Position numbers and translations under genes: made by a program. From Anas platyrhynchos (Eukaryota > Chordata > Aves > Anseriformes > Anatidae): a stretch of DNA of 64,000 bases. A model generated the notes under the pieces. The model saw only the letters and a list, made by a program, of their open reading frames with translations, was not told the origin of the DNA and did no database searches. The DNA lies in contig NC_092599.1 in NCBI RefSeq assembly GCF_047663525.1, positions 25,415,501 through 25,479,500 on the forward strand. The letters run 5' to 3'. The number at the start of each line of letters is the position of its first letter. Position 1 is the stretch's first letter. Below, one piece after another: positions 1-30,423 of this stretch.

Positions 1-900
1 ATACCAGTACATACCATTAAAATATAAGCAAAAACAGACAAAAGAAACTGCAACAAAGGAAAATTGAAGCGACAATTACTTGTAACAGTCAAAAACCTGC
101 GTGCCTTGAAAAAGAAACCAAGGAATGTGTCTATTTTCCCCTTCACTGGAAATTTGAAATATAATTAAATATTTTCCAGCAGATTCTGAAAAAAAAACCA
201 ACACTGAGGCTTTGAAGCTGAGTATAAAACAAATGTTTTCAGAAAATAACACTGTTACTGAGCATGACCTGTGAGAAAACAATATGGGGCAAACTATAAC
301 CGCCATTTAAATATAAGTAGCATACTCTATGGATACAACAAGCATCCTGATCATCATGTAAGTCCTCTATGAATACTTCAGTTTGCACAAAAGAGAAAGA
401 GAAAGAAAGATTTTACTGAGACTAGGAAGCAGATGATTTTAATCATACTCAAGTCCATCAGAACTGCAATTCACTGAAGGAGCAACGGTCAAAAGAGTTT
501 AGGCAGCAATTTGCTTGTCAGCACTTAGGTCAGATTTAAGTCAAGTGAGAAGAAAACTTTAACTTTGTATTCTTGTGAACCACTGTCTCAGCGTGCCTTT
601 AAGAACAGAGAAAATACTCCTTTAATTAACACTTTCAAAAATAACTAACTCTAAAGTCTTTAATACTGCAAAAGCTCTGAGAGACTAAATTTCATGTACT
701 AGAAAACTAAGCAGAAAGTATTTACAACCATTCACACAATTCTTGTCTTAAAGAAACAAAATCAGCAATTTTGCAAACAACTTGTTCAAACATTTAAAAT
801 TGTTGACTGTAACTTGCAAAGCTACTTATAAACTTGACTGTACTGCTTGACTACTTGACTGTAACTCGTAAAGCTAGTAACAGGAAATAATTAATCTTGC

Positions 901-1083
901 CTGGGTTTTTAGCAATTCGTTATTTTCCCTCAGAGAGTTAAGCGATGACCTCAGTTCGTTATTTTCATCAGTCATTTTTCTCAAGGTTTCTCTCAGTTGG
1001 CTCATTTTTGTCTCATGCTGCTTATTTTCATCAGTCATTTTTCTCAAGGTTTCTCTCAGTTGGCTCATTTTTGTCTCATGCTG
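901..1083 (-). CDS. CCDC138: Array exon 1, long form (61 codons), CCDC138-like coiled coil
   Basis: The minus-strand exon follows a pyrimidine-rich acceptor ending tttctctag and begins CAG CAT GAG. It ends AAA ACC CAG followed by gcaaga, a GC-type donor. It is 183 nt, phase 0 at both ends, with no stop. It encodes two near-identical 21-residue repeats (QHETKMSQLRETLRKMTDENK) and then a 20-residue tail with ELRSSLNSLRENNELLK, all strongly coiled-coil (E/K/R/Q-rich with leucines at heptad spacing). From memory it resembles the coiled-coil exon of CCDC138 that begins QHE and contains a REKTKENKRLKSS-type stretch; no alignment was run. CCDC138 is a coiled-coil protein of poorly known function. 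Whether this copy is spliced into any mRNA is unknown. Confidence 0.65.
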
Positions 1084-2595
1084 CTAGAGAAACATCAAAT
1101 TTTAAAACGTGATTAACAAGAGAGTCTTTTTAGAAATAATTCCCAACTAAGTTCCATTTCAGTGTTAAAAAACAGGACAAACTTTCAAAGATCAAATTTG
1201 TAATTCTTCATGGTCCAATCTGCACATACCACCAGTAGTGAAGAAAGCAACATCCACACCACATATTAAGAAGAAATATAAAGAAAATGGGAGCCATGGT
1301 GTACAGCCTATGGATCTTTTTTTTTTTCCAGAAAATACCTAGATCTTCTCATTGATCCTCTTGTACATTCCTCAGTTAAGTCAGGTGTGGGAAAGAATTG
1401 TGAATGAAAACAAATGTCAAAGCTTTTGTTTACACTTAGCTCTTTTTTCTTTTAGCATCCATTTTAACCACAAATATGCCCAATTCTCCCTTTTTTGAAT
1501 CTTTCAAATATTCTAACTATTCACTGCTGATAGTTAAGATGCTTTAGTTCACCTGTACTTAAACACCTGTCCTGCAGTGTCCAGGAATGTATCCAATACG
1601 TGCTACATTTCATCGAATTGGAAAAAAATAATTGTGAAACTCAAGATAGTAATCTTTTAATATTTGTTGTTATTATTAGTCCACAATATAATTTAATACC
1701 AGTACATACCATTAAAATATAAGCAAAAACAGACAAAAGAAACTGCAACAAAGGAAAATTGAAGCGACAATTACTTGTAACAGTCAAAAACCTGCGTGCC
1801 TTGAAAAAGAAACCAAGGAATGTGTCTATTTTCCCCTTCACTGGAAATTTGAAATATAATTAAATATTTTCCAGCAGATTCTGAAAAAAAAACCAACACT
1901 GAGGCTTTGAAGCTGAGTATAAAACAAATGTTTTCAGAAAATAACACTGTTACTGAGCATGACCTGTGAGAAAACAATATGGGGCAAACTATAACCGCCA
2001 TTTAAATATAAGTAGCATACTCTATGGATACAACAAGCATCCTGATCATCATGTAAGTCCTCTATGAATACTTCAGTTTGCACAAAAGAGAAAGAGAAAG
2101 AAAGATTTTACTGAGACTAGGAAGCAGATGATTTTAATCATACTCAAGTCCATCAGAACTGCAATTCACTGAAGGAGCAACGGTCAAAAGAGTTTAGGCA
2201 GCAATTTGCTTGTCAGCACTTAGGTCAGATTTAAGTCAAGTGAGAAGAAAACTTTAACTTTGTATTCTTGTGAACCACTGTCTCAGCGTGCCTTTAAGAA
2301 CAGAGAAAATACTCCTTTAATTAACACTTTCAAAAATAACTAACTCTAAAGTCTTTAATACTGCAAAAGCTCTGAGAGACTAAATTTCATGTACTAGAAA
2401 ACTAAGCAGAAAGTATTTACAACCATTCACACAATTCTTGTCTTAAAGAAACAAAATCAGCAATTTTGCAAACAACTTGTTCAAACATTTAAAATTGTTG
2501 ACTGTAACTTGCAAAGCTACTTATAAACTTGACTGTACTGCTTGACTACTTGACTGTAACTTGTAAAGCTAGTAACAGGAAATAATTAATCTTGC

Positions 2596-2778
2596 CTGGG
2601 TTTTTAGCAATTCGTTATTTTCCCTCAGAGAGTTAAGCGATGACCTCAGTTCGTTATTTTCATCAGTCATTTTTCTCAAGGTTTCTCTCAGTTGGCTCAT
2701 TTTTGTCTCATGCTGCTTATTTTCATCAGTCATTTTTCTCAAGGTTTCTCTCAGTTGGCTCATTTTTGTCTCATGCTG
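2596..2778 (-). CDS. CCDC138: Array exon 2, long form
   Basis: This 183-nt, phase 0/0 exon encodes the same 61 residues as array exon 1, with the same tag acceptor and GC donor. A C-to-T change lies in the intron just past the donor (cttgtaaag instead of ctcgtaaag near 2560). Confidence 0.62.
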
Positions 2779-4290
2779 CTAGAGAAACATCAAATTTTAA
2801 AACGTGATTAACAAGAGAGTCTTTTTAGAAATAATTCCCAACTAAGTTCCATTTCAGTGTTAAAAAACAGGACAAACTTTCAAAGATCAAATTTGTAATT
2901 CTTCATGGTCCAATCTGCACATACCACCAGTAGTGAAGAAAGCAACATCCACACCACATATTAAGAAGAAATATAAAGAAAATGGGAGCCATGGTGTACA
3001 GCCTATGGATCTTTTTTTTTTTCCAGAAAATACCTAGATCTTCTCATTGATCCTCTTGTACATTCCTCAGTTAAGTCAGGTGTGGGAAAGAATTGTGAAT
3101 GAAAACAAATGTCAAAGCTTTTGTTTACACTTAGCTCTTTTTTCTTTTAGCATCCATTTTAACCAAAAATATGCCCAATTCTCCCTTTTTTGAATCTTTC
3201 AAATATTCTAACTATTCACTGCTGATAGTTAAGATGCTTTAGTTCACCTGTACTTAAACACCTGTCCTGCAGTGTCCAGGAATGTATCCAATACGTGCTA
3301 CATTTCATTGAATTGGAAAAAAATAATTGTGAAACTCAAGATAGTTATCTTTTAATATTTGTTATTATTATTAGTCCACAATATAATTTAATACCAGTAC
3401 ATACCATTAAAATATAAGCAAAAACAGACAAAAGAAACTGCAACAAAGGAAAATTGAAGCGACAATTACTTGTAACAGTCAAAAACCTGCGTGCCTTGAA
3501 AAAGAAACCAAGGAATGTGTCTATTTTCCCCTTCACTGGAAATTTGAAATATAATTAAATATTTTCCAGCAGATTCTGAAAAAAAAACCAACACTGAGGC
3601 TTTGAAGCTGAGTATAAAACAAATGTTTTCAGAAAATAACACTGTTACTGAGCATGACCTGTGAGAAAACAATATGGGGCAAACTATAACCGCCATTTAA
3701 ATATAAGTAGCATACTCTATGGATACAACAAGCATCCTGATCATCATGTAAGTCCTCTATGAATACTTCAGTTTGCACAAAAGAGAAAGAGAAAGAAAGA
3801 TTTTACTGAGACTAGGAAGCAGATGATTTTAATCATACTCAAGTCCATCAGAACTGCAATTCACTGAAGGAGCAACGGTCAAAAGAGTTTAGGCAGCAAT
3901 TTGCTTGTCAGCACTTAGGTCAGATTTAAGTCAAGTGAGAAGAAAACTTTAACTTTGTATTCTTGTGAACCACTGTCTCAGCGTGCCTTTAAGAACAGAG
4001 AAAATACTCCTTTAATTAACACTTTCAAAAATAACTAACTCTAAAGTCTTTAATACTGCAAAAGCTCTGAGAGACTAAATTTCATGTACTAGAAAACTAA
4101 GCAGAAAGTATTTACAACCATTCACACAATTCTTGTCTTAAAGAAACAAAATCAGCAATTTTGCAAACAACTTGTTCAAACATTTAAAATTGTTGACTGT
4201 AACTTGCAAAGCTACTTATAAACTTGACTGTACTGCTTGACTACTTGACTGTAACTCGTAAAGCTAGTAACAGGAAATAATTAATCTTGC

Positions 4291-4410
4291 CTGGGATTTT
4301 AGCAATTCGATATTTTCCCTCAGAGAGTTAAGCGATGACCTCAGTTCGTTATTTTCATCAGTCATTTTTCTCAAGGTTTCTCTCAGTTGGCTCATTTTTA
4401 TCTCATGCTG
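4291..4410 (-). CDS. CCDC138: Array exon 3, short form with diverged ends
   Basis: This 120-nt, phase 0/0 exon has a single copy of the 21-residue repeat. It carries three substitutions relative to the common form: QHEIK for QHETK near the start, ENIELL for ENNELL, and KSQ for KTQ at the end. The frame stays open and both splice sites are kept. The same three changes occur in the exons at 19494 and 24461, marking these three units as one subfamily. Confidence 0.6.
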
Positions 4411-5927
4411 CTAGAGAAATATCAAATTTTAAAACGTGATTAACAAGAGAGTCTTTTTAGAAATAATTCCCAACTAAGTTCCATTTCAGTGTTAAAAAAC
4501 AGGTCAAACTTTCAAAGATCAAATTTGTAATTCTTCATGGTCCAATCTGCACATACCACCAGTAGTGAAGAAAGCAACATCCACACCACATATTAAGAAG
4601 AAATATAAAGAAAATGGGAGCCATGGTGTACAGCCTATGGATCTTTTTTTTTTTTTTTCCAGAAAATACCTAGATCTTCTCATTGATCCTCTTGTACATT
4701 CCTCAGTTAAGTCAGGTGTGGGAAAGAATTGTGAATGAAAACAAATGTCAAAGCTTTTGTTTACACTTAGCTCTTTTTTTTTTTTAGCATCCATTTTAAC
4801 CACAAATATGCCCAATTCTCCCTTTTTTGAATCTTTCAAATATTCTAACTATTCACTGCTGATAGTTAAGACGCTTTAGTTCACCTGTACTTAAACACCT
4901 GTCCTGCAATGTCCAGGAATGTATCCAATACGTGCTACATTTCATCGAATTGGAAAAAAATAATTGTGAAACTCAAGATAGTAATCTTTTAATATTTGTT
5001 GTTATTATTAGTCCACAATATAATTTAATACCAGTACATACCATTAAAATATAAGCAAAAACAGACAAAAGAAACTGCAACAAAGGAAAATTGAAGCGAC
5101 AATTACTTGTAACAGTCAAAAACCTGCGTGCCTTGAAAAAGAAACCAAGGAATGTGTCTATTTTCCCCTTCACTGGAAATTTGAAATATAATTAAATATT
5201 TTCCAGCAGATTCTGAAAAAAAAACCAACACTGAGGCTTTGAAGCTGAGTATAAAACAAATGTTTTCAGAAAATAACACTGTTACTGAGCATGACCTGTG
5301 AGAAAACAATATGGGGCAAACTATAACCGCCATTTAAATATAAGTAGCATACTCTATGGATACAACAAGCATCCTGATCATCATGTAAGTCCTCTATGAA
5401 TACTTCAGTTTGCACAAAAGAGAAAGAGAAAGAAAGATTTTACTGAGACTAGGAAGCAGATGATTTTAATCATACTCAAGTCCATCAGAACTGCAATTCA
5501 CTGAAGGAGCAACGGTCAAAAGAGTTTAGGCAGCAATTTGCTTGTCAGCACTTAGGTCAGATTTAAGTCAAGTGAGAAGAAAACTTTAACTTTGTATTCT
5601 TGTGAACCACTGTCTCAGCGTGCCTTTAAGAACAGAGAAAATACTCCTTTAATTAACACTTTCAAAAATAACTAACTCTAAAGTCTTTAATACTGCAAAA
5701 GCTCTGAGAGACTAAATTTCATGTACTAGAAAACTAAGCAGAAAGTATTTACAACCATTCACACAATTCTTGTCTTAAAGAAACAAAATCAGCAATTTTG
5801 CAAACAACTTGTTCAAACATTTAAAATTGTTGACTGTAACTTGCAAAGCTACTTATAAACTTGACTGTACTGCTTGACTACTTGACTGTAACTCGTAAAG
5901 CTAGTAACAGGAAATAATTAATCTTGC

Positions 5928-6110
5928 CTGGGTTTTTAGCAATTCGTTATTTTCCCTCAGAGAGTTAAGCGATGACCTCAGTTCGTTATTTTCATCAGTC
6001 ATTTTTCTAAAGGGTTGTCTCAGTTGGCTCCTTTTTGTCTCATGCTGCTTATTTTCATCAGTCATTTTTCTCAAGGTTTCTCTCAGTTGGCTCATTTTTG
6101 TCTCATGCTG
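5928..6110 (-). CDS. CCDC138: Array exon 4, long form with altered second repeat
   Basis: This 183-nt, phase 0/0 exon is open. The second 21-residue repeat has diverged: KRSQLRQPFRK replaces KMSQLRETLRK. It introduces a proline and an extra arginine that would disturb a coiled coil. It is the most diverged copy in the window. Confidence 0.6.
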
Positions 6111-7627
6111 CTAGAGAAATATCAAATTTTAAAACGTGATTAACAAGAGAGTCTTTTTAGAAATAATTCCCAACTAAGTTCCATTTCAGTGTTAAAAAAC
6201 AGGACAAACTTTCAAAGATCAAATTTGTAATTCTTCATGGTCCAATCTGCACATACCACCAGTAGTGAAGAAAGCAACATCCACACCACATATTAAGAAG
6301 AAATATAAAGAAAATGGGAGCCATGGTGTACAGCCTATGGATCTTTTTTTTTTTTTTTTCCAGAAAATACCTAGATCTTCTCATTGATCCTCTTGTACAT
6401 TCCTCAGTTAAGTCAGGTGTGGGAAAGAATTGTGAATGAAAACAAATGTCAAAGCTTTTGTTTACACTTAGCTCTTTTTTCTTTTAGCATCCATTTTAAC
6501 CACAAATATGCCCAATTCTCCCTTTTTTGAATCTTTCAAATATTCTAACTATTCACTGCTGATAGTTAAGACGCTTTAGTTCACCTGTACTTAAACACCT
6601 GTCCTGCAATGTCCAGGAATGTATCCAATACGTGCTACATTTCATCGAATTGGAAAAAAATAATTGTGAAACTCAAGATAGTTATCTTTTAATATTTGTT
6701 GTTATTATTAGTCCACAATATAATTTAATACCAGTACATACCATTAAAATATAAGCAAAAACAGACAAAAGAAACTGCAACAAAGGAAAATTGAAGCGAC
6801 AATTACTTGTAACAGTCAAAAACCTGCGTGCCTTGAAAAAGAAACCAAGGAATGCGTCTATTTTCCCCTTCACTGGAAATTTGAAATATAATTAAATATT
6901 TTCCAGCAGATTCTGAAAAAAAAACCAACACTGAGGCTTTGAAGCTGAGTATAAAACAAATGTTTTCAGAAAATAACACTGTTACTGAGCATGACCTGTG
7001 AGAAAACAATATGGGGCAAACTATAACCGCCATTTAAATATAAGTAGCATACTCTATGGATACAACAAGCATCCTGATCATCATGTAAGTCCTCTATGAA
7101 TACTTCAGTTTGCACAAAAGAGAAAGAGAAAGAAAGATTTTACTGAGACTAGGAAGCAGATGATTTTAATCATACTCAAGTCCATCAGAACTGCAATTCA
7201 CTGAAGGAGCAACGGTCAAAAGAGTTTAGGCAGCAATTTGCTTGTCAGCACTTAGGTCAGATTTAAGTCAAGTGAGAAGAAAACTTTAACTTTGTATTCT
7301 TGTGAACCACTGTCTCAGCGTGCCTTTAAGAACAGAGAAAATACTCCTTTAATTAACACTTTCAAAAATAACTAACTCTAAAGTCTTTAATACTGCAAAA
7401 GCTCTGAGAGACTAAATTTCATGTACTAGAAAACTAAGCAGAAAGTATTTACAACCATTCACACAATTCTTGTCTTAAAGAAACAAAATCAGCAATTTTG
7501 CAAACAACTTGTTCAAACATTTAAAATTGTTGACTGTAACTTGCAAAGCTACTTATAAACTTGACTGTACTGCTTGACTACTTGACTGTAACTCGTAAAG
7601 CTAGTAACAGGAAATAATTAATCTTGC

Positions 7628-7810
7628 CTGGGTTTTTAGCAATTCGTTATTTTCCCTCAGAGAGTTAAGCGATGACCTCAGTTCGTTATTTTCATCAGTC
7701 ATTTTTCTCAAGGTTTCTCTCAGTTGGCTCATTTTTGTCTCATGCTGCTTATTTTCATCAGTCATTTTTCTCAAGGTTTCTCTCAGTTGGCTCATTTTTG
7801 TCTCATGCTG
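7628..7810 (-). CDS. CCDC138: Array exon 5, long form
   Basis: This 183-nt exon encodes the common 61-residue form with standard array splice sites. Its unit carries the rare variant aatgcgtcta near 6851, shared only with the unit near 17023. Confidence 0.62.
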
Positions 7811-9322: not shown

Positions 9323-9505
9323 CTGGGTTTTTAGCAATTCGTTATTTTCCCTCAGAGAGTTAAGCGATGACCTCAGTTCGTTATTTTCATCAGTCATTTT
9401 TCTCAAGGTTTCTCTCAGTTGGCTCATTTTTGTCTCATGCTGCTTATTTTCATCAGTCATTTTTCTCAAGGTTTCTCTCAGTTGGCTCATTTTTGTCTCA
9501 TGCTG
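9323..9505 (-). CDS. CCDC138: Array exon 6, long form
   Basis: This 183-nt exon encodes the common 61 residues. It belongs to a run of 1695-bp units (8498-16973) whose exons are identical in translation. Confidence 0.62.
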
Positions 9506-11017: not shown

Positions 11018-11200
11018 CTGGGTTTTTAGCAATTCGTTATTTTCCCTCAGAGAGTTAAGCGATGACCTCAGTTCGTTATTTTCATCAGTCATTTTTCTCA
11101 AGGTTTCTCTCAGTTGGCTCATTTTTGTCTCATGCTGCTTATTTTCATCAGTCATTTTTCTCAAGGTTTCTCTCAGTTGGCTCATTTTTGTCTCATGCTG
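11018..11200 (-). CDS. CCDC138: Array exon 7, long form
   Basis: This 183-nt, phase 0/0 exon is identical in translation to its neighbours in the homogenised block. Confidence 0.62.
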
Positions 11201-12712: not shown

Positions 12713-12895
12713 CTGGGTTTTTAGCAATTCGTTATTTTCCCTCAGAGAGTTAAGCGATGACCTCAGTTCGTTATTTTCATCAGTCATTTTTCTCAAGGTT
12801 TCTCTCAGTTGGCTCATTTTTGTCTCATGCTGCTTATTTTCATCAGTCATTTTTCTCAAGGTTTCTCTCAGTTGGCTCATTTTTGTCTCATGCTG
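12713..12895 (-). CDS. CCDC138: Array exon 8, long form
   Basis: This 183-nt, phase 0/0 exon encodes the common 61 residues with a tag acceptor and GC donor. It lies in the homogenised block. Confidence 0.62.
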
Positions 12896-16102: not shown

Positions 16103-16285
16103 CTGGGTTTTTAGCAATTCGTTATTTTCCCTCAGAGAGTTAAGCGATGACCTCAGTTCGTTATTTTCATCAGTCATTTTTCTCAAGGTTTCTCTCAGTT
16201 GGCTCATTTTTGTCTCATGCTGCTTATTTTCATCAGTCATTTTTCTCAAGGTTTCTCTCAGTTGGCTCATTTTTGTCTCATGCTG
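16103..16285 (-). CDS. CCDC138: Array exon 10, long form
   Basis: This 183-nt exon encodes the common 61 residues. The unit changes character just to the right: gagccaacgtg replaces gagccatggtg near 16497, and a T tract lengthens near 16650. This suggests the edge of the homogenised block. Confidence 0.62.
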
Positions 16286-17798
16286 CTAGAGAAACATCAA
16301 ATTTTAAAACGTGATTAACAAGAGAGTCTTTTTAGAAATAATTCCCAACTAAGTTCCATTTCAGTGTTAAAAAACAGGACAAACTTTCAAAGATCAAATT
16401 TGTAATTCTTCATGGTCCAATCTGCACATACCACCAGTAGTGAAGAAAGCAACATCCACACCACATATTAAGAAGAAATATAAAGAAAATGGGAGCCAAC
16501 GTGTACAGCCTATGGATCTTTTTTTTTTTTTCCAGAAAATACCTAGATCTTCTCATTGATCCTCTTGTACATTCCTCAGTTAAGTCAGGTGTGGGAAAGA
16601 ATTGTGAATGAAAACAAATGTCAAAGCTTTTGTTTACACAGCTCTTTTTTTTTTTTAGCATCCATTTTAACCACAAATATGCCCAATTCTCCCTTTTTTG
16701 AATCTTTCAAATATTCTAACTATTCACTGCTGATAGTTAAGACGCTTTAGTTCACCTGTACTTAAACACCTGTCCTGCAATGTCCAGGAATGTATCCAAT
16801 ACGTGCTACATTTCATCGAATTGGAAAAAAATAATTGTGAAACTCAAGATAGTAATCTTTTAATATTTGTTGTTATTATTAGTCCACAATATAATTTAAT
16901 ACCAGTACATACCATTAAAATATAAGCAAAAACAGACAAAAGAAACTGCAACAAAGGAAAATTGAAGCGACAATTACTTGTAACAGTCAAAAACCTGCGT
17001 GCCTTGAAAAAGAAACCAAGGAATGCGTCTATTTTCCCCTTCACTGGAAATTTGAAATATAATTAAATATTTTCCAGCAGATTCTGAAAAAAAAACCAAC
17101 ACTGAGGCTTTGAAGCTGAGTATAAAACAAATGTTTTCAGAAAATAACACTGTTACTGAGCATGACCTGTGAGAAAACAATATGGGGCAAACTATAACCG
17201 CCATTTAAATATAAGTAGCATACTCTATGGATACAACAAGCATCCTGATCATCATGTAAGTCCTCTATGAATACTTCAGTTTGCACAAAAGAGAAAGAGA
17301 AAGAAAGATTTTACTGAGACTAGGAAGCAGATGATTTTAATCATACTCAAGTCCATCAGAACTGCAATTCACTGAAGGAGCAACGGTCAAAAGAGTTTAG
17401 GCAGCAATTTGCTTGTCAGCACTTAGGTCAGATTTAAGTCAAGTGAGAAGAAAACTTTAACTTTGTATTCTTGTGAACCACTGTCTCAGCGTGCCTTTAA
17501 GAACAGAGAAAATACTCCTTTAATTAACACTTTCAAAAATAACTAACTCTAAAGTCTTTAATACTGCAAAAGCTCTGAGAGACTAAATTTCATGTACTAG
17601 AAAACTAAGCAGAAAGTATTTACAACCATTCACACAATTCTTGTCTTAAAGAAACAAAATCAGCAATTTTGCAAACAACTTGTTCAAACATTTAAAATTG
17701 TTGACTGTAACTTGCAAAGCTACTTATAAACTTGACTGTACTGCTTGACTACTTGACTGTAACTCGTAAAGCTAGTAACAGGAAATAATTAATCTTGC

Positions 17799-17981
17799 CT
17801 GGGTTTTTAGCAATTCGTTATTTTCCCTCAGAGAGTTAAGCGATGACCTCAGTTCGTTATTTTCATCAGTCATTTTTCTCAAGGTTTCTCTCAGTTGGCT
17901 CATTTTTGTCTCATGCTGCTTATTTTCATCAGTCATTTTTCTCAAGGTTTCTCTCAGTTGGCTCATTTTTGTCTCATGCTG
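17799..17981 (-). CDS. CCDC138: Array exon 11, long form
   Basis: This 183-nt exon encodes the common 61 residues. Its unit shares the aatgcgtct variant with the unit of array exon 5. Confidence 0.62.
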
Positions 17982-19493
17982 CTAGAGAAACATCAAATTT
18001 TAAAACGTGATTAACAAGAGAGTCTTTTTAGAAATAATTCCCAACTAAGTTCCATTTCAGTGTTAAAAAACAGGACAAACTTTCAAAGATCAAATTTGTA
18101 ATTCTTCATGGTCCAATCTGCACATACCACCAGTAGTGAAGAAAGCAACATCCACACCACATATTAAGAAGAAATATAAAGAAAATGGGAGCCATGGTGT
18201 ACAGCCTATGGATCTTTTTTTTTTTCCAGAAAATACCTAGATCTTCTCATTGATCCTCTTGTACATTCCTCAGTTAAGTCAGGTGTGGGAAAGAATTGTG
18301 AATGAAAACAAATGTCAAAGCTTTTGTTTACACTTAGCTCTTTTTTCTTTTAGCATCCATTTTAACCAAAAATATGCCCAATTCTCCCTTTTTTGAATCT
18401 TTCAAATATTCTAACTATTCACTGCTGATAGTTAAGATGCTTTAGTTCACCTGTACTTAAACACCTGTCCTGCAGTGTCCAGGAATGTATCCAATACGTG
18501 CTACATTTCATTGAATTGGAAAAAAATAATTGTGAAACTCAAGATAGTTATCTTTTAATATTTGTTATTATTATTAGTCCACAATATAATTTAATACCAG
18601 TACATACCATTAAAATATAAGCAAAAACAGACAAAAGAAACTGCAACAAAGGAAAATTGAAGCGACAATTACTTGTAACAGTCAAAAACCTGCGTGCCTT
18701 GAAAAAGAAACCAAGGAATGTGTCTTTTTTCCCCTTCACTGGAAATTTGAAATATAATTAAATATTTTCCAGCAGATTCTGAAAAAAAAACCAACACTGA
18801 GGCTTTGAAGCTGAGTATAAAACAAATGTTTTCAGAAAATAACACTGTTACTGAGCATGACCTGTGAGAAAACAATATGGGGCAAACTATAACCGCCATT
18901 TAAATATAAGTAGCATACTCTATGGATACAACAAGCATCCTGATCATCATGTAAGTCCTCTATGAATACTTCAGTTTGCACAAAAGAGAAAGAGAAAGAA
19001 AGATTTTACTGAGACTAGGAAGCAGATGATTTTAATCATACTCAAGTCCATCAGAACTGCAATTCACTGAAGGAGCAACGGTCAAAAGAGTTTAGGCAGC
19101 AATTTGCTTGTCAGCACTTAGGTCAGATTTAAGTCAAGTGAGAAGAAAACTTTAACTTTGTATTCTTGTGAACCACTGTCTCAGCGTGCCTTTAAGAACA
19201 GAGAAAATACTCCTTTAATTAACACTTTCAAAAATAACTAACTCTAAAGTCTTTAATACTGCAAAAGCTCTGAGAGACTAAATTTCATGTACTAGAAAAC
19301 GAAGCAGAAAGTATTTACAACCATTCACACAATTCTTGTCTTAAAGAAACAAAATCAGCAATTTTGCAAACAACTTGTTCAAACATTTAAAATTGTTGAC
19401 TGTAACTTGCAAAGCTACTTATAAACTTGACTGTACTGCTTGACTACTTGACTGTAACTCGTAAAGCTAGTAACAGGAAATAATTAATCTTGC

Positions 19494-19613
19494 CTGGGAT
19501 TTTAGCAATTCGATATTTTCCCTCAGAGAGTTAAGCGATGACCTCAGTTCGTTATTTTCATCAGTCATTTTTCTCAAGGTTTCTCTCAGTTGGCTCATTT
19601 TTATCTCATGCTG
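19494..19613 (-). CDS. CCDC138: Array exon 12, short diverged form
   Basis: This 120-nt, phase 0/0 exon is open. It carries the same QHEIK, ENIELL and KSQ changes as the exons at 4291 and 24461. It is the first unit of the three-unit higher-order repeat. Confidence 0.6.
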
Positions 19614-21130
19614 CTAGAGAAACATCAAATTTTAAAACGTGATTAACAAGAGAGTCTTTTTAGAAATAATTCCCAACTAAGTTCCATTTCAGTGTTAAAA
19701 AACAGGTCAAACTTTCAAAGATCAAATTTGTAATTCTTCATGGTCCAATCTGCACATACCACCAGTAGTGAAGAAAGCAACATCCACACCACATATTAAG
19801 AAGAAATATAAAGAAAATGGGAGCCATGGTGTACAGCCTATGGATCTTTTTTTTTTTTTTTCCAGAAAATACCTAGATCTTCTCATTGATCCTCTTGTAC
19901 ATTCCTCAGTTAAGTCAGGTGTGGGAAAGAATTGTGAATGAAAACAAATGTCAAAGCTTTTGTTTACACTTAGCTCTTTTTTTTTTTTAGCATCCATTTT
20001 AACCACAAATATGCCCAATTCTCCCTTTTTTGAATCTTTCAAATATTCTAACTATTCACTGCTGATAGTTAAGACGCTTTAGTTCACCTGTACTTAAACA
20101 CCTGTCCTGCAATGTCCAGGAATGTATCCAATACGTGCTACATTTCATCGAATTGGAAAAAAATAATTGTGAAACTCAAGATAGTAATCTTTTAATATTT
20201 GTTGTTATTATTAGTCCACAATATAATTTAATACCAGTACATACCATTAAAATATAAGCAAAAACAGACAAAAGAAACTGCAACAAAGGAAAATTGAAGC
20301 GACAATTACTTGTAACAGTCAAAAACCTGCGTGCCTTGAAAAAGAAACCAAGGAATGTGTCTATTTTCCCCTTCACTGGAAATTTGAAATATAATTAAAT
20401 ATTTTCCAGCAGATTCTGAAAAAAAAAACAACACTGAGGCTTTGAAGCTGAGTATAAAACAAATGTTTTCAGAAAATAACACTGTTACTGAGCATGACCT
20501 GTGAGAAAACAATATGGGGCAAACTATAACCGCCATTTAAATATAAGTAGCATACTCTATGGATACAACAAGCATCCTGATCATCATGTAAGTCCTCTAT
20601 GAATACTTCAGTTTGCACAAAAGAGAAAGAGAAAGAAAGATTTTACTGAGACTAGGAAGCAGATGATTTTAATCATACTCAAGTCCATCAGAACTGCAAT
20701 TCACTGAAGGAGCAACGGTCAAAAGAGTTTAGGCAGCAATTTGCTTGTCAGCACTTAGGTCAGATTTAAGTCAAGTGAGAAGAAAACTTTAACTTTGTAT
20801 TCTTGTGAACCACTGTCTCAGCGTGCCTTTAAGAACAGAGAAAATACTCCTTTAATTAACACTTTCAAAAATAACTAACTCTAAAGTCTTTAATACTGCA
20901 AAAGCTCTGAGAGACTAAATTTCATGTACTAGAAAACGAAGCAGAAAGTATTTACAACCATTCACACAATTCTTGTCTTAAAGAAACAAAATCAGCAATT
21001 TTGCAAACAACTTGTTCAAACATTTAAAATTGTTGACTGTAACTTGCAAAGCTACTTATAAACTTGACTGTACTGCTTGACTACTTGACTGTAACTCGTA
21101 AAGCTAGTAACAGGAAATAATTAATCTTGC

Positions 21131-21250
21131 CTGGGTTTTTAGCAATTCGTTATTTTCCCTCAGAGAGTTAAGCGATGACCTCAGTTCGTTATTTTCATCA
21201 GTCATTTTTCTCAAGGTTTCTCTCAGTTGGCTCATTTTTGTCTCATGCTG
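21131..21250 (-). CDS. CCDC138: Array exon 13, short common form
   Basis: This 120-nt, phase 0/0 exon has one copy of the 21-residue repeat plus the common tail (ENNELLKTQ). It matches the exon at 26098 one higher-order period (4967 bp) away. Confidence 0.6.
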
Positions 21251-22765
21251 CTAGAGAAACATCAAATTTTAAAACGTGATTAACAAGAGAGTCTTTTTAG
21301 AAATAATTCCCAACTAAGTTCCATTTCAGTGTTAAAAAACAGGACAAACTTTCAAAGATCAAATTTGTAATTCTTCATGGTCCAATCTGCACATACCACC
21401 AGTAGTGAAGAAAGCAACATCCACACCACATATTAAGAAGAAATATAAAGAAAATGGGAGCCATGGTGTACAGCCTATGGATCTTTTTTTTTTTTTCCAG
21501 AAAATACCTAGATCTTCTCATTGATCCTCTTGTACATTCCTCAGTTAAGTCAGGTGTGGGAAAGAATTGTGAATGAAAACAAATGTCAAAGCTTTTGTTT
21601 ACACTTAGCTCTTTTTTTTTTTTAGCATCCATTTTAACCACAAATATGCCCAATTCTCCCTTTTTTGAATCTTTCAAATATTCTAACTATTCACTGCTGA
21701 TAGTTAAGACGCTTTAGTTCACCTGTACTTAAACACCTGTCCTGCAATGTCCAGGAATGTATCCAATACGTGCTACATTTCATCGAATTGGAAAAAAATA
21801 ATTGTGAAACTCAAGATAGTAATCTTTTAATATTTGTTGTTATTATTAGTCCACAATATAATTTAATACCAGTACATACCATTAAAATATAAGCAAAAAC
21901 AGACAAAAGAAACTGCAACAAAGGAAAATTGAAGCGACAATTACTTGTAACAGTCAAAAACCTGCGTGCCTTGAAAAAGAAACCAAGGAATGTGTCTATT
22001 TTCCCCTTCACTGGAAATTTGAAATATAATTAAATATTTTCCAGCAGATTCTGAAAAAAAAACCAACACTGAGGCTTTGAAGCTGAGTATAAAACAAATG
22101 TTTTCAGAAAATAACACTGTTACTGAGCATGACCTGTGAGAAAACAATATGGGGCAAACTATAACCGCCATTTAAATATAAGTAGCATACTCTATGGATA
22201 CAACAAGCATCCTGATCATCATGTAAGTCCTCTATGAATACTTCAGTTTGCACAAAAGAGAAAGAGAAAGAAAGATTTTACTGAGACTAGGAAGCAGATG
22301 ATTTTAATCATACTCAAGTCCATCAGAACTGCAATTCACTGAAGGAGCAACGGTCAAAAGAGTTTAGGCAGCAATTTGCTTGTCAGCACTTAGGTCAGAT
22401 TTAAGTCAAGTGAGAAGAAAACTTTAACTTTGTATTCTTGTGAACCACTGTCTCAGCGTGCCTTTAAGAACAGAGAAAATACTCCTTTAATTAACACTTT
22501 CAAAAATAACTAACTCTAAAGTCTTTAATACTGCAAAAGCTCTGAGAGACTAAATTTCATGTACTAGAAAACTAAGCAGAAAGTATTTACAACCATTCAC
22601 ACAATTCTTGTCTTAAAGAAACAAAATCAGCAATTTTGCAAACAACTTGTTCAAACATTTAAAATTGTTGACTGTAACTTGCAAAGCTACTTATAAACTT
22701 GACTGTACTGCTTGACTACTTGACTGTAACTCGTAAAGCTAGTAACAGGAAATAATTAATCTTGC

Positions 22766-22948
22766 CTGGGTTTTTAGCAATTCGTTATTTTCCCTCAGAG
22801 AGTTAAGCGATGACCTCAGTTCGTTATTTTCATCAGTCATTTTTCTCAAGGTTTCTCTCAGTTGGCTCATTTTTGTCTCATGCTGCTTATTTTCATCAGT
22901 CATTTTTCTCAAGGTTTCTCTCAGTTGGCTCATTTTTGTCTCATGCTG
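22766..22948 (-). CDS. CCDC138: Array exon 14, long form
   Basis: This 183-nt exon encodes the common 61 residues. It is the third unit of the first higher-order repeat copy. Confidence 0.62.
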
Positions 22949-24460
22949 CTAGAGAAACATCAAATTTTAAAACGTGATTAACAAGAGAGTCTTTTTAGAA
23001 ATAATTCCCAACTAAGTTCCATTTCAGTGTTAAAAAACAGGACAAACTTTCAAAGATCAAATTTGTAATTCTTCATGGTCCAATCTGCACATACCACCAG
23101 TAGTGAAGAAAGCAACATCCACACCACATATTAAGAAGAAATATAAAGAAAATGGGAGCCATGGTGTACAGCCTATGGATCTTTTTTTTTTTCCAGAAAA
23201 TACCTAGATCTTCTCATTGATCCTCTTGTACATTCCTCAGTTAAGTCAGGTGTGGGAAAGAATTGTGAATGAAAACAAATGTCAAAGCTTTTGTTTACAC
23301 TTAGCTCTTTTTTCTTTTAGCATCCATTTTAACCAAAAATATGCCCAATTCTCCCTTTTTTGAATCTTTCAAATATTCTAACTATTCACTGCTGATAGTT
23401 AAGATGCTTTAGTTCACCTGTACTTAAACACCTGTCCTGCAGTGTCCAGGAATGTATCCAATACGTGCTACATTTCATTGAATTGGAAAAAAATAATTGT
23501 GAAACTCAAGATAGTTATCTTTTAATATTTGTTATTATTATTAGTCCACAATATAATTTAATACCAGTACATACCATTAAAATATAAGCAAAAACAGACA
23601 AAAGAAACTGCAACAAAGGAAAATTGAAGCGACAATTACTTGTAACAGTCAAAAACCTGCGTGCCTTGAAAAAGAAACCAAGGAATGTGTCTTTTTTCCC
23701 CTTCACTGGAAATTTGAAATATAATTAAATATTTTCCAGCAGATTCTGAAAAAAAAACCAACACTGAGGCTTTGAAGCTGAGTATAAAACAAATGTTTTC
23801 AGAAAATAACACTGTTACTGAGCATGACCTGTGAGAAAACAATATGGGGCAAACTATAACCGCCATTTAAATATAAGTAGCATACTCTATGGATACAACA
23901 AGCATCCTGATCATCATGTAAGTCCTCTATGAATACTTCAGTTTGCACAAAAGAGAAAGAGAAAGAAAGATTTTACTGAGACTAGGAAGCAGATGATTTT
24001 AATCATACTCAAGTCCATCAGAACTGCAATTCACTGAAGGAGCAACGGTCAAAAGAGTTTAGGCAGCAATTTGCTTGTCAGCACTTAGGTCAGATTTAAG
24101 TCAAGTGAGAAGAAAACTTTAACTTTGTATTCTTGTGAACCACTGTCTCAGCGTGCCTTTAAGAACAGAGAAAATACTCCTTTAATTAACACTTTCAAAA
24201 ATAACTAACTCTAAAGTCTTTAATACTGCAAAAGCTCTGAGAGACTAAATTTCATGTACTAGAAAACGAAGCAGAAAGTATTTACAACCATTCACACAAT
24301 TCTTGTCTTAAAGAAACAAAATCAGCAATTTTGCAAACAACTTGTTCAAACATTTAAAATTGTTGACTGTAACTTGCAAAGCTACTTATAAACTTGACTG
24401 TACTGCTTGACTACTTGACTGTAACTCGTAAAGCTAGTAACAGGAAATAATTAATCTTGC

Positions 24461-24580
24461 CTGGGATTTTAGCAATTCGATATTTTCCCTCAGAGAGTTA
24501 AGCGATGACCTCAGTTCGTTATTTTCATCAGTCATTTTTCTCAAGGTTTCTCTCAGTTGGCTCATTTTTATCTCATGCTG
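24461..24580 (-). CDS. CCDC138: Array exon 15, short diverged form
   Basis: This 120-nt open exon has the QHEIK, ENIELL and KSQ changes. It lies exactly 4967 bp from array exon 12. Confidence 0.6.
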
Positions 24581-26097
24581 CTAGAGAAACATCAAATTTT
24601 AAAACGTGATTAACAAGAGAGTCTTTTTAGAAATAATTCCCAACTAAGTTCCATTTCAGTGTTAAAAAACAGGTCAAACTTTCAAAGATCAAATTTGTAA
24701 TTCTTCATGGTCCAATCTGCACATACCACCAGTAGTGAAGAAAGCAACATCCACACCACATATTAAGAAGAAATATAAAGAAAATGGGAGCCATGGTGTA
24801 CAGCCTATGGATCTTTTTTTTTTTTTTTCCAGAAAATACCTAGATCTTCTCATTGATCCTCTTGTACATTCCTCAGTTAAGTCAGGTGTGGGAAAGAATT
24901 GTGAATGAAAACAAATGTCAAAGCTTTTGTTTACACTTAGCTCTTTTTTTTTTTTAGCATCCATTTTAACCACAAATATGCCCAATTCTCCCTTTTTTGA
25001 ATCTTTCAAATATTCTAACTATTCACTGCTGATAGTTAAGACGCTTTAGTTCACCTGTACTTAAACACCTGTCCTGCAATGTCCAGGAATGTATCCAATA
25101 CGTGCTACATTTCATCGAATTGGAAAAAAATAATTGTGAAACTCAAGATAGTAATCTTTTAATATTTGTTGTTATTATTAGTCCACAATATAATTTAATA
25201 CCAGTACATACCATTAAAATATAAGCAAAAACAGACAAAAGAAACTGCAACAAAGGAAAATTGAAGCGACAATTACTTGTAACAGTCAAAAACCTGCGTG
25301 CCTTGAAAAAGAAACCAAGGAATGTGTCTATTTTCCCCTTCACTGGAAATTTGAAATATAATTAAATATTTTCCAGCAGATTCTGAAAAAAAAAACAACA
25401 CTGAGGCTTTGAAGCTGAGTATAAAACAAATGTTTTCAGAAAATAACACTGTTACTGAGCATGACCTGTGAGAAAACAATATGGGGCAAACTATAACCGC
25501 CATTTAAATATAAGTAGCATACTCTATGGATACAACAAGCATCCTGATCATCATGTAAGTCCTCTATGAATACTTCAGTTTGCACAAAAGAGAAAGAGAA
25601 AGAAAGATTTTACTGAGACTAGGAAGCAGATGATTTTAATCATACTCAAGTCCATCAGAACTGCAATTCACTGAAGGAGCAACGGTCAAAAGAGTTTAGG
25701 CAGCAATTTGCTTGTCAGCACTTAGGTCAGATTTAAGTCAAGTGAGAAGAAAACTTTAACTTTGTATTCTTGTGAACCACTGTCTCAGCGTGCCTTTAAG
25801 AACAGAGAAAATACTCCTTTAATTAACACTTTCAAAAATAACTAACTCTAAAGTCTTTAATACTGCAAAAGCTCTGAGAGACTAAATTTCATGTACTAGA
25901 AAACGAAGCAGAAATTATTTACAACCATTCACACAATTCTTGTCTTAAAGAAACAAAATCAGCAATTTTGCAAACAACTTGTTCAAACATTTAAAATTGT
26001 TGACTGTAACTTGCAAAGCTACTTATAAACTTGACTGTACTGCTTGACTACTTGACTGTAACTCGTAAAGCTAGTAACAGGAAATAATTAATCTTGC

Positions 26098-26217
26098 CTG
26101 GGTTTTTAGCAATTCGTTATTTTCCCTCAGAGAGTTAAGCGATGACCTCAGTTCGTTATTTTCATCAGTCATTTTTCTCAAGGTTTCTCTCAGTTGGCTC
26201 ATTTTTGTCTCATGCTG
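26098..26217 (-). CDS. CCDC138: Array exon 16, short common form
   Basis: This 120-nt open exon lies exactly 4967 bp from array exon 13. Its unit has a private change, gaaattattt for gaaagtattt, near 25911. Confidence 0.6.
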
Positions 26218-27732
26218 CTAGAGAAACATCAAATTTTAAAACGTGATTAACAAGAGAGTCTTTTTAGAAATAATTCCCAACTAAGTTCCATTTCAGTGTT
26301 AAAAAACAGGACAAACTTTCAAAGATCAAATTTGTAATTCTTCATGGTCCAATCTGCACATACCACCAGTAGTGAAGAAAGCAACATCCACACCACATAT
26401 TAAGAAGAAATATAAAGAAAATGGGAGCCATGGTGTACAGCCTATGGATCTTTTTTTTTTTTTCCAGAAAATACCTAGATCTTCTCATTGATCCTCTTGT
26501 ACATTCCTCAGTTAAGTCAGGTGTGGGAAAGAATTGTGAATGAAAACAAATGTCAAAGCTTTTGTTTACACTTAGCTCTTTTTTTTTTTTAGCATCCATT
26601 TTAACCACAAATATGCCCAATTCTCCCTTTTTTGAATCTTTCAAATATTCTAACTATTCACTGCTGATAGTTAAGACGCTTTAGTTCACCTGTACTTAAA
26701 CACCTGTCCTGCAATGTCCAGGAATGTATCCAATACGTGCTACATTTCATCGAATTGGAAAAAAATAATTGTGAAACTCAAGATAGTAATCTTTTAATAT
26801 TTGTTGTTATTATTAGTCCACAATATAATTTAATACCAGTACATACCATTAAAATATAAGCAAAAACAGACAAAAGAAACTGCAACAAAGGAAAATTGAA
26901 GCGACAATTACTTGTAACAGTCAAAAACCTGCGTGCCTTGAAAAAGAAACCAAGGAATGTGTCTATTTTCCCCTTCACTGGAAATTTGAAATATAATTAA
27001 ATATTTTCCAGCAGATTCTGAAAAAAAAAACAACACTGAGGCTTTGAAGCTGAGTATAAAACAAATGTTTTCAGAAAATAACACTGTTACTGAGCATGAC
27101 CTGTGAGAAAACAATATGGGGCAAACTATAACCGCCATTTAAATATAAGTAGCATACTCTATGGATACAACAAGCATCCTGATCATCATGTAAGTCCTCT
27201 ATGAATACTTCAGTTTGCACAAAAGAGAAAGAGAAAGAAAGATTTTACTGAGACTAGGAAGCAGATGATTTTAATCATACTCAAGACCATCAGAACTGCA
27301 ATTCACTGAAGGAGCAACGGTCAAAAGAGTTTAGGCAGCAATTTGCTTGTCAGCATTTAGGTCAGATTTAAGTCAAGTGAGAAGAAAACTTTAACTTTGT
27401 ATTCTTGTGAACCACTGTCTCAGCGTGCCTTTAAGAACAGAGAAAATACTCCTTTAATTAACACTTTCAAAAATAACTAACTCTAAAGTCTTTAATACTG
27501 CAAAAGCTCTGAGAGACTAAATTTCATGTACTAGAAAACGAAGCAGAAAGTATTTACAACCATTCACACAATTCTTGTCTTAAAGAAACAAAATCAGCAA
27601 TTTTGCAAACAACTTGTTCAAACATTTAAAATTGTTGACTGTAACTTGCAAAGCTACTTATAAACTTGACTGTACTGCTTGACTACTTGACTGTAACTCG
27701 TAAAGCTAGTAACAGGAAATAATTAATCTTGC

Positions 27733-27915
27733 CTGGGTTTTTAGCAATTCGTTATTTTCCCTCAGAGAGTTAAGCGATGACCTCAGTTCGTTATTTTCAT
27801 CAGTCATTTTTCTCAAGGTTTCTCTCAGTTGGCTCATTTTTGTCTCATGCTGCTTATTTTCATCAGTCATTTTTCTCAAGGTTTCTCTCAGTTGGCTCAT
27901 TTTTGTCTCATGCTG
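27733..27915 (-). CDS. CCDC138: Array exon 17, long form
   Basis: This 183-nt exon encodes the common 61 residues. The intron just before the acceptor has the gaaatatc variant shared with the units at 4291, 5928 and 29435. Confidence 0.62.
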
Positions 27916-29434
27916 CTAGAGAAATATCAAATTTTAAAACGTGATTAACAAGAGAGTCTTTTTAGAAATAATTCCCAACTAAGTTCCATTTCAGTGTTAA
28001 AAAACAGGACAAACTTTCAAAGATCAAATTTGTAATTCTTCATGGTCCAATCTGCACATACCACCAGTAGTGAAGAAAGCAACATCCACACCACATATTA
28101 AGAAGAAATATAAAGAAAATGGGAGCCATGGTGTACAGCCTATGGATCTTTTTTTTTTTTTTTTTCCAGAAAATACCTAGATCTTCTCATTGATCCTCTT
28201 GTACATTCCTCAGTTAAGTCAGGTGTGGGAAAGAATTGTGAATGAAAACAAATGTCAAAGCTTTTGTTTACACTTAGCTCTTTTTTTTTTTTAGCATCCA
28301 TTTTAACCACAAATATGCCCAATTCTCCCTTTTTTGAATCTTTCAAATATTCTAACTATTCACTGCTGATAGTTAAGACGCTTTAGTTCACCTGTACTTA
28401 AACACCTGTCCTGCAATGTCCAGGAATGTATCCAATACGTGCTACATTTCATCGAATTGGAAAAAAATAATTGTGAAACTCAAGATAGTAATCTTTTAAT
28501 ATTTGTTGTTATTATTAGTCCACAATATAATTTAATACCAGTACATACCATTAAAATATAAGCAAAAACAGACAAAAGAAACTGCAACAAAGGAAAATTG
28601 AAGCGACAATTACTTGTAACAGTCAAAAACCTGCGTGCCTTGAAAAAGAAACCAAGGAATGTGTCTTTTTTCCCCTTCACTGGAAATCTGTAATATAATT
28701 AAATATTTTCCAGCAGATTCTGAAAAAAAAACCAACACTGAGGCTTTGAAGCTGAGTATAAAACAAATGTTTTCAGAAAATAACACTGTTACTGAGCATG
28801 ACCTGTGAGAAAACAATATGGGGCAAACTATAACCGCCATTTAAATATAAGTAGCATACTCTATGGATACAACAAGCATCCTGATCATCATGTAAGTCCT
28901 CTATGAATACTTCAGTTTGCACAAAAGAGAAAGAGAAAGAAAGATTTTACTGAGACTAGGAAGCAGATGATTTTAATCATACTCAAGACCATCAGAACTG
29001 CAATTCACTGAAGGAGCAACGGTCAAAAGAGTTTAGGCAGCAATTTGCTTGTCAGCATTTAGGTCAGATTTAAGTCAAGTGAGAAGAAAACTTTAACTTT
29101 GTATTCTTGTGAACCACTGTCTCAGCGTGCCTTTAAGAACAGAGAAAATACTCCTTTAATTAACACTTTCAAAAATAACTAACTCTAAAGTCTTTAATAC
29201 TGCAAAAGCTCTGAGAGACTAAATTTCATGTACTAGAAAACGAAGCAGAAAGTATTTACAACCATTCACACAATTCTTGTCTTAAAGAAACAAAATCAGC
29301 AATTTTGCAAACAACTTGTTCAAACATTTAAAATTGTTGACTGTAACTTGCAAAGCTACTTATAAACTTGACTGTACTGCTTGACTACTTGACTGTAACT
29401 CGTAAAGCTAGTAACAGGAAATAATTAATCTTGC

Positions 29435-29554
29435 CTGGGTTTTTAGCAATTCGTTATTTTCCCTCAGAGAGTTAAGCGATGACCTCAGTTCGTTATTTTC
29501 ATCAGTCATTTTTCTCAAGGTTTCTCTCAGTTGGCTCATTTTTGTCTCATGCTG
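29435..29554 (-). CDS. CCDC138: Array exon 18, short form, first exon of the array in transcript order
   Basis: This 120-nt, phase 0/0 exon is open. On the minus strand it is the array copy nearest the upstream chimeric gene, about 1.8 kb after exon 7. If exon 7 were spliced onward from its apparent phase-0 donor, this exon would be the in-frame acceptor. Confidence 0.6.
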
Positions 29555-30116
29555 CTAGAGAAATATCAAATTTTAAAACGTGATTAACAAGAGAGTCTTT
29601 TTAGAAATAATTCCCAACTAAGTTCCATTTCAGTGTTAAAAAACAGGACAAACTTTCAAAGATCAAATTTGTAATTCTTCATGGTCCAATCTGCACATAC
29701 CACCAGTAGTGAAGAAAGCAACATCCACACCACATATTAAGAAGAAATATAAAGAAAATGGGAGCCATGGTGTACAGCCTATGGATCTTTTTTTTTTTTT
29801 TCCAGAAAATACCTAGATCTTCTCATTGATCCTCTTGTACATTCCTCAGTTAAGTCAGGTGTGGGAAAGAATTGTGAATGAAAACAAATGTCAAAGCTTT
29901 TGTTTACACTTAGCTCATTTTTTTTTTTTAGCATCCATTTTAACCTCAAATATGCCCAATTCTCCCTTTTTTGAATCTTTCAAATATTCTAACTATTCAC
30001 TGCTGATAGTTAAGACGCTTTAGTTCACCTGTACTTAAACACCTGTCCTGCAATGTCCAGGAATGTATCCAATACGTGCTACATTTCATCGAATTGGAAA
30101 AAAATAATTGTGAAAC

Positions 30117-30423
30117 TCAAGATAGTAATCTTTTAATATTTGTTGTTATTATTAGTCCACAATATAATTTAATACCAGTACATACCATTAAAATATAAGC
30201 AAAAACAGACAAAAGAAACTGCAACAAAGGAAAATTGAAGTGACAATTACTTGTAACAGTCAAAAACCTGCGTGCCTTGAAAAAGAAACCAAGGAATGTG
30301 TCTTTTTTCCCCTTCACTGGAAATTTGAAATATAATTAAATATTTTCCAGCAGATTCTGAAAAAAAAAAACAACACTGAGGCTTTGAAGCCGAGTATAAA
30401 ACAAATGTTTTCAGAAAATAACA
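30117..30423. repeat. Partial last unit and right edge of the array
   Basis: The unit continues normally through its A tract (now 11-12 A) and gaagccgagtataaaac, then diverges right after ttcagaaaataaca at about 30423. The flank beyond does not obviously match the unit. The single-base change gaagtgacaatt near 30237 is private to this partial copy. Confidence 0.85.

Follow-up and report, generated by a model that had tools for sequence, protein, structure and literature searches.

The window analyzed here (the whole stretch of 64,000 nucleotides from Anas platyrhynchos) carries a long tandem array of one short coiled-coil exon. This raises the question of whether these exons belong to a gene and are spliced in tandem into a giant, length-variable protein, as the earlier note had suggested, or are satellite-like by-products. 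The array contains 18 complete units (start positions 1, 1696, 3391 ... 28535 in the window; length 1,635-1,702 bp), each consisting of one exon with flanking intron, and the units are so alike that chance is not an issue. The array continues past the left edge of the window, and 18 is a lower bound on the number of units. The exon lies on the minus strand in all 18 units and is 183 nt long in 12 and 120 nt in 6. The 63-nt difference is one 21-codon block, which is doubled in the 12 long exons. These counts bear out the earlier note's description of at least 18 copies (18 complete units and a partial 19th) of a 120- or 183-nt exon, open and in phase 0 at both ends (18/18), together encoding about 972 residues (2,916 nt, 972 codons, no stop). 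Phase 0 is backed independently by the upstream exons described below, as exons 1-6 total 540 nt and exon 7 closes at 699 nt. The features of the array are as follows.

1..30423, minus strand: exon array, 18 complete units (1.63-1.70 kb) and a 252-bp partial unit.
30172-30423: partial 19th unit, 252-bp match.
29435..29554, minus strand: the array exon transcribed first, in unit 18 (120 nt, 40 aa, QHETKMSQLRETLRKMTDENNELRSSLNSLRENNELLKTQ).
27733..27915, minus strand: typical long array exon, unit 17, 183 nt, with the 63-nt block twice; same length in 12/18 units.
901..1083, minus strand: last array exon within the window, unit 1, 183 nt, donor gcaaga, acceptor tttctctag/cag.
16899..26832, minus strand: 3-unit block in two adjoining copies (units 11-13 and 14-16; 4,967 bp each, 2 mismatches).

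The noncoding unit alignment showed 22 substitution and 10 gap columns in 1,520 columns, and the 120-nt core exon showed 7 substitution columns among units. Units 1, 6, 7, 8 and 9 had no substitutions between them, and the others show differences at up to 16 positions. The duplicated 3-unit block would be a footprint of unequal exchange. An RSQLRQPF tract in unit 4 is also present in gene models P0006, P0009 and P0034, suggesting that exchange between array variants is likely.

The acceptor reads TTTCTCTAG/CAG and the donor CCCAG/GCAAG in every one of the 18 units, the donor thus being GC and not GT, a feature that was absent from the earlier note. Each unit also has a tandem acceptor, TAGCAG, and both of its forms, QH and H, were observed among the array-array junctions of Anas gene models. 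Read-through past the array donor encodes ARLIISCY in all 18 window units. The GC donors together with the tandem acceptor of every unit would be expected to make both exon number and register variable.

Upstream of the array, between 30.4 and 38.5 kb on the same strand, we found the exons of a host gene, which the earlier note had missed. They begin as a copy of RANBP2 and continue as CCDC138.

38426..38500, minus strand: exon 1, 75 nt, start codon, RANBP2 N-terminus MLRRSKAEVERCVASVQASAASRRE.
36396..36463, minus strand: exon 2, 68 nt, RANBP2 TPR region.
35767..35878, minus strand: exon 3, 112 nt, RANBP2 TPR region.
34639..34791, minus strand: exon 4, 153 nt, RANBP2 TPR region.
33698..33755, minus strand: exon 5, 58 nt, seam from RANBP2 residue 143 (EQLLDCK) to about residue 415 (APxxAELHKYD), P0037 numbering.
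32468..32541, minus strand: exon 6, 74 nt, CCDC138-derived, LPSHLGKSQSNSELQVARQNLQ.
31375..31533, minus strand: exon 7, 159 nt, phase 0/0, coiled coil of CCDC138, with a TAG in frame at 31399-31401.

Exons 1-6 are open and their frames chain unbroken. Residues 2-144 matched the human RANBP2 TPR structure 4ga1 (E=8e-69), and the match ended there. Compared with RANBP2 of Anas zonorhyncha (P0037), the RANBP2 part of the window showed 6 differences in 143 residues. The seam is an internal in-frame deletion that joins duck RANBP2 residue 143 to about residue 415. The N-terminus of CCDC138 is absent from the window gene, with the RANBP2 exons in its place, and any CCDC138 C-terminal exons of this copy lie to the left of the window.

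The Pfam family CCDC138_cc scored below its cut-off (E=0.0022) on an artificial tandem of three short exons, and we therefore turned to pairwise alignment with CCDC138. The array exon was identical to a stretch of Gavia stellata CCDC138 at 19/40 positions without gaps. Exons 6 and 7 and the array exon were collinear with Gavia CCDC138, with 55/115 identical residues and 2 gap positions (E=1e-30, with an X put in place of the exon 7 stop). Judging by these alignments, the exon that forms the array is the coiled-coil exon of CCDC138 itself. In the Pfam search of the artificial tandem (best 25 of 125 families), Takusan, ZapB, Exonuc_VII_S and DUF3972 scored above their curated cut-offs and were rejected as compositional coiled-coil matches.

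With its in-frame stop in the window copy, exon 7 must be skipped, and its phase of 0/0 means that skipping preserves the frame. A pigeon CCDC138 isoform model (P0201) appears, by eye, to skip the homologue of this exon.

Seven Anas platyrhynchos gene models share the first 180 residues encoded in the window without a difference. Thirty Anas models were examined, all of them cluster representatives found with queries containing the array exon, so that the proportions below are biased. An array exon was present in 21 of the 30, and 11 contained two or more in tandem (2 to 10), whereas 27 contained between none and four. Exon 6 was joined straight to an array exon in 18/30, and the exon 7 sequence was absent from those 18. 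CCDC138 C-terminal sequence, which is outside the window, was found by string match in 24/30, and six ended in ARLIISCY, the array read-through peptide. These models come from computed annotation (with isoforms numbered X...), and the splice junctions are known here from annotation, not RNA. The tandem-spliceable, phase-symmetric exon of the earlier note thus has its counterpart in the 11 models with array exons in a row. Its "giant, length-variable protein" holds in part, as the array-bearing models do differ in length, but "giant" is unproven. The longest array-bearing model fetched has 832 aa and 10 array exons. The long-query search took proteins of about 634-2,016 aa and gave the best 120 of 142 matches as cluster representatives, behind which longer forms could be hidden.

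Pfam annotation of the Anas matches listed included PF21035, the CCDC138 C-terminal domain, where the C-terminus was reached. GRIP (PF01465) was not found in the annotation of these matches, and the C-terminal exons of the window copy lie outside the window. Some duck models bear the label "RANBP2-like and GRIP domain-containing", which in view of these domains is misleading. The chimera explains this and other misleading names of duck models (UACA-like, sporulation-specific protein 15-like, RGPD5/6). It occurred only in Anas among the matches listed, and no RANBP2-CCDC138 chimera was found among the papers listed from the open-licence PMC literature, judged by title and the start of the abstract.

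We therefore consider it quite likely that the array arose by amplification of the coiled-coil exon in a chimeric Anas RANBP2-CCDC138 gene, and that a variable number of array exons is spliced into the transcript. The exons, frames, homologies, array structure and stop codon are read from the window itself, and the junctions and isoforms are those of published gene models.

Selection among the units bears on this reading. All seven exon changes were nonsynonymous and none was synonymous (possible changes: 72 synonymous, 269 nonsynonymous and 19 stop), and exon columns were more variable than intron columns (7/120 vs 22/1,520, Fisher p=0.004). Purifying selection was thus not visible among the array exons of the 18 window units by either comparison. 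The earlier note had named the synonymous versus nonsynonymous comparison as its own check, and the outcome counts against it, although the synonymous test is weak and not decisive, since three changes are common to units 3, 12 and 15 and four are clustered in unit 4, i.e., two haplotypes. The same counts would suit decay: the locus would be a degenerate copy of a genuine chimeric gene, its array a local macrosatellite whose uniformity is due to unequal exchange, and its transcription at most noise. The stop in exon 7, the proviruses directly before the start codon and the 6/30 models that end by read-through within the array also fit such a by-product. However, all 18 exons are open with both splice sites kept, exons 1-6 are open and encode an N-terminus identical to seven models, and exon 7 can be skipped in frame, as its pigeon homologue appears to be. 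We regard decay as the less probable reading, though one with some weight. A purely noncoding satellite was rejected because host exons 1-7 lie on the same strand and their frames chain, yet no purifying selection is visible in the array.

At the other extreme, all exons of the array could be joined in a single protein chain exceeding 1,150 residues. The open phase-symmetric exons do sum to 972 residues, and A. acuta models have 9-10 array exons, but more than 10 were found in no fetched model (cluster representatives among the matches listed), nearly all Anas models (27/30) have 0-4, and GC donors and read-through endings favour short products, which makes such a chain improbable. We attach just as little probability to an assembly artefact, i.e., a wrong copy number or wrong contiguity of identical units. 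Assemblers miscount such repeats, and both units 1 and 6-9, without substitutions, and the proviral tandem described below are of this kind. Several tandem array exons of differing variants are nevertheless found in models of both A. platyrhynchos and A. acuta, and the remaining units are not identical.

In the chimeric gene that we favour, a RANBP2 copy would have been shortened by about 270 internal codons and by its 3' part. Fused to it would be the middle and end portions of CCDC138, a gene that lies next to RANBP2 in vertebrates. Unequal crossing-over, as we infer, would then have multiplied the 40-codon exon of CCDC138 with its flanking intron. The minus-strand transcript would begin at or above 38.5 kb and contain TPR exons 1-5 and exon 6. 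Exon 7 with its stop would usually be skipped, a variable number of array exons would be next, and the transcript would end either with the C-terminal part of CCDC138, which would lie left of the window, or with 8 read-through codons past an array donor. The product, if made, would have a TPR head and a variable-length rod, followed in most models by the CCDC138 C-terminal part, and may have inherited a centrosome- or cilium-linked role from CCDC138.

The 5' flank of the gene is proviral, and the repeat starts about 24 bp upstream of the start codon.

38525..64000, minus strand: proviral copies in tandem with a period of 8,785 bp, oriented like the gene, 0 mismatches over 16,690 compared positions.

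A more specific scenario, which we hold tentatively and think rather unlikely as a whole, is that of a multi-copy, recently born RANBP2-CCDC138 gene of dabbling ducks, in which the exon array and leaky GC/NAGNAG splicing set the rod length of a TPR-rod protein at centrosomes or in the germ line. In the window copy, a retroviral LTR directly before the ATG would have captured the promoter.

The 972 array residues include one proline and no glycine. AlphaFold2 predicted helices of 265 and 150 residues across the array of P0034, with pLDDT of about 80-88 at residues 231-440 and about 77-87 at 501-600, and lower values at the ends. Overall confidence was low (mean 59.4, pTM 0.26), and only the long helices are usable. 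The helix break at 463-487 overlaps the start of a variant exon (residue 476), beginning 13 residues before it. The hydrophobic period of joined exons was 3.33 for the short exon, 3.39 for the long exon and 3.38 for all 18; higher peaks occurred in 3, 2 and 0 of 300 shuffles, respectively. None of the peaks is at 3.5, which counts against the favoured reading, as does the low AlphaFold2 confidence; we read the departure as register slips at exon junctions, because repetition of a 40- or 61-residue unit permits only certain periods.

The duck chimera with its coding macrosatellite is LPA KIV-2-like in architecture and primate RGPD-like in origin, and a large single-exon array now has an identified gene and a definite origin. 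The KIV-2 unit of human LPA is 5.6 kb with two exons of about 160 and 182 bp, present in 1 to about 40 units per allele (PMC11462820). Both arrays consist of near-identical in-frame intron-plus-exon units in tandem within a protein-coding gene (18/18 duck units), and copy number would, by analogy, set protein length. The duck unit differs in its size (about 1.7 kb), single exon, coiled coil instead of kringle, GC donors and chimeric host gene. It is a bird counterpart of KIV-2 whose repeat unit has one short exon, and the relation of array length, splicing and protein length is therefore testable with ordinary duck long-read RNA and DNA.

The tail of primate RGPD derives from GCC2, a neighbouring gene. 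RGPD genes derive from RANBP2 and contain a GRIP domain, and segmental duplication has produced eight copies of them on human chromosome 2 (PMC6920530). Like RGPD, the duck gene is a RANBP2-derived multi-copy gene that keeps the TPR head and has other sequence at its end. Unlike RGPD, its tail is CCDC138 without a GRIP domain, it contains an exon array, and its RANBP2 part is short, reaching residue 143 and adding about 11 residues from around 415. This suggests that RANBP2 has been a source of lineage-specific chimeras at least twice, in primates (RGPD) and in ducks.

Compared with CCDC138 itself, exons 6 and 7 and the array exon are CCDC138 exons and Anas models end in PF21035, whereas the N-terminus is replaced and one exon is present at least 18 times. 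In Gavia CCDC138 the next stretch is LGDVTELNKK..., which, on inspection by eye, is lacking in those array-bearing Anas models that extend to the C-terminal part. Repeats were also observed in the swan and goose models P0155/P0157, which begin inside the repeated stretch. The CCDC138 model of Cygnus atratus contains four copies of the homologous exon within the protein, and that of Anser cygnoides two copies of the following segment. Unlike in the duck array, what is repeated in swan and goose covers two exon-like segments (66 aa in swan).

Eighteen complete tandem units, each 1,635-1,702 bp long, and a partial one of 252 bp make up the array at 1-30423; the array extends beyond base 1 of the window, and 18 units is a lower bound. 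In every complete unit there is a single open exon, read from the minus strand, of 183 nt in 12 units and 120 nt in six, and the summed exons amount to 2,916 nt or 972 codons, so that the exon count and coding total given in an earlier note were borne out. The long exons contain a 63-nt block twice, and the extra block is identical in sequence in all 12. The acceptor TTTCTCTAG/CAG and the donor CCCAG/GCAAG (slash, splice position) were found in 18 of 18 exons (901-29554), so that every exon combines a donor of the GC type with a tandem acceptor, TAGCAG. Such a uniform set of splice sites is potentially leaky.

Seven exons of the host gene could be chained between the array and 38.5 kb:

38426-38500, minus strand: host exon 1
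36396-36463, minus strand: host exon 2
35767-35878, minus strand: host exon 3
34639-34791, minus strand: host exon 4
33698-33755, minus strand: host exon 5
32468-32541, minus strand: host exon 6; CCDC138 from here on
31375-31533, minus strand: host exon 7; in-frame TAG at 31399-31401

Exons 1-6 are all open (540 nt, 180 codons). Host residues 2-144 matched the RANBP2 TPR domain (4ga1, E=8e-69) up to the motif EQLLDC. The residues directly after this motif, APSLAELHKYD, correspond to position ~415 of duck RANBP2, and therefore about 270 internal codons are missing. Exons 6 and 7 together with the array exon were collinear with CCDC138 of Gavia stellata (55 of 115 aligned residues identical), and the array exon by itself aligned gap-free with 19 of 40 residues identical. 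The array is a real coding macrosatellite inside a chimeric gene of the duck lineage. In our search of open-licence PMC papers, a coding macrosatellite in a duck RANBP2-CCDC138 chimera was not found described. The array is of the same kind as the human coding VNTR LPA KIV-2 in architecture, and the chimera is of the same kind as the primate RANBP2-derived RGPD family in origin, but they are members of neither. Exon 7, with its in-frame stop codon, has phase 0 at both ends and can be skipped.

Computed protein models related to the gene were found in three protein searches, each of which scored only about 8,000 candidates and reported matches as cluster representatives. With exons 1-7 and three array exons as the query, 33 matches were obtained: 26 from Anas (named as A. 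platyrhynchos or A. acuta), one nameless and six from other vertebrates, the last being RANBP2/RGPD-type proteins or fragments. A 1,152-aa query gave three further A. acuta isoforms of 762-832 aa among the best 120 of 142 matches, and the third search gave one further A. platyrhynchos model and CCDC138 of other birds among the best 120 of 687. With the parent RANBP2 proteins P0037 (Anas zonorhyncha) and P0038 left out, 30 Anas models were counted, which are representatives rather than genes and are skewed towards the queries used. The 180-residue N-terminus of the window gene was identical in seven A. platyrhynchos models (P0001-P0005, P0009 and P0014), which makes mallard or domestic duck the most likely source of the window.

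At least one array exon was present in 21 of the 30 models, and 11 contained at least two in tandem, with a maximum of 10. Exon 6 was joined straight to an array exon in 18, and CCDC138 C-terminal sequence was found in 24. An additional Q was present at some array-array junctions and missing from others, which is what the tandem acceptor predicts. Six models ended in ARLIISCY, which all 18 window units encode when the GC donor is left unused. These published gene models support the proposed tandem splicing for at least part of the family. They also differ in array exon number, in agreement with the length-variable protein that had been suggested. A giant rod of 972 residues is improbable as the standard form of the putative protein. 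The exon 7 body was found in one model; the model P0032 begins with MKKQHETKM, a peptide that corresponds to the final exon 7 codons running into an array exon, and exon 7 is therefore probably also included at times. The translation start of P0032 appears to lie in these final exon 7 codons. In three models (P0001, P0003 and P0036) one exon encodes 81 or 82 residues and has three copies of the 21-residue block, and none of the window's 18 units has an exon of this size. The A. platyrhynchos relatives lie on contigs of 4.6, 6.1, 11.2 and 43.0 Mb, which may be dispersed loci or merely different assemblies.

In the AlphaFold2 prediction for the 832-residue A. acuta model P0034, helices span residues 198-462 and 488-637, and the break at 463-487 overlaps the start of a variant exon at residue 476. 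The pLDDT was ~80-88 at 231-440, 77-87 at 501-600 and below 50 past ~610, and confidence was low for the TPR head and for the C-terminal region; over the whole model the mean was 59.4 and the pTM 0.26. In multiciliated cells of the frog, tagged CCDC138 is reported at basal bodies (PMC5488662), so a centrosome- or cilium-linked role for the putative chimeric protein is at most a reasonable guess.

Array units differed pairwise at 0 to 16 positions. Units 1, 6, 7, 8 and 9 showed zero substitutions among them, and units 11-13 and 14-16 form a duplicated block of 4,967 bp with 2 mismatches. Because of these near-identical units and the duplicated three-unit block, the array looks like one shaped by recent unequal exchange or gene conversion. 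Variable columns numbered 7 of 120 in the core exon and 22 of 1,520 in the noncoding part. All seven exonic changes were nonsynonymous, and the comparison of exon and noncoding columns across the 18 units showed no visible purifying selection, at low power, as the variants fall into just two haplotypes; the synonymous-nonsynonymous check called for earlier thus has little weight. The exon of unit 4 (5028-6727) has four clustered changes (KRSQLRQPF), and their recurrence in other duck models suggests exchange between variant exons or paralogues.

Upstream of the gene, from ~38.52 kb (38525) to 64000, proviral copies stand in tandem with a period of 8,785 bp and 0 mismatches over 16,690 positions compared. 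With zero divergence, either the proviral tandem is of very recent origin or the assembly is at fault here. The provirus has the orientation of the host gene (minus) and begins ~24 bp upstream of the start codon, and its LTR is a possible promoter for this gene copy. The one period examined contains three long ORFs of 912, 1,044 and 506 codons. In a scan of five ORF pieces, both pieces of the middle ORF matched Pfam protease, reverse transcriptase, RNase H and integrase, and the three from the other ORFs had no Pfam family match at E 0.001.

In other birds, the CCDC138 model of Cygnus atratus (P0155) has four copies of the exon homologous to the array exon and that of Anser cygnoides (P0157) has the following segment twice; both models start inside the repeat, and either could come from a gene with or without a RANBP2 head. 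By eye, the stretch occurs just once in the proteins from Gavia, ostrich and pigeon (P0158, P0160 and P0201). The tendency of the CCDC138 coiled-coil stretch to multiply may, judging from these sequences, predate the fusion. Within each of the swan and goose models the coiled-coil stretch has its own duplications, and the duplicated unit in swan comprises two segments.
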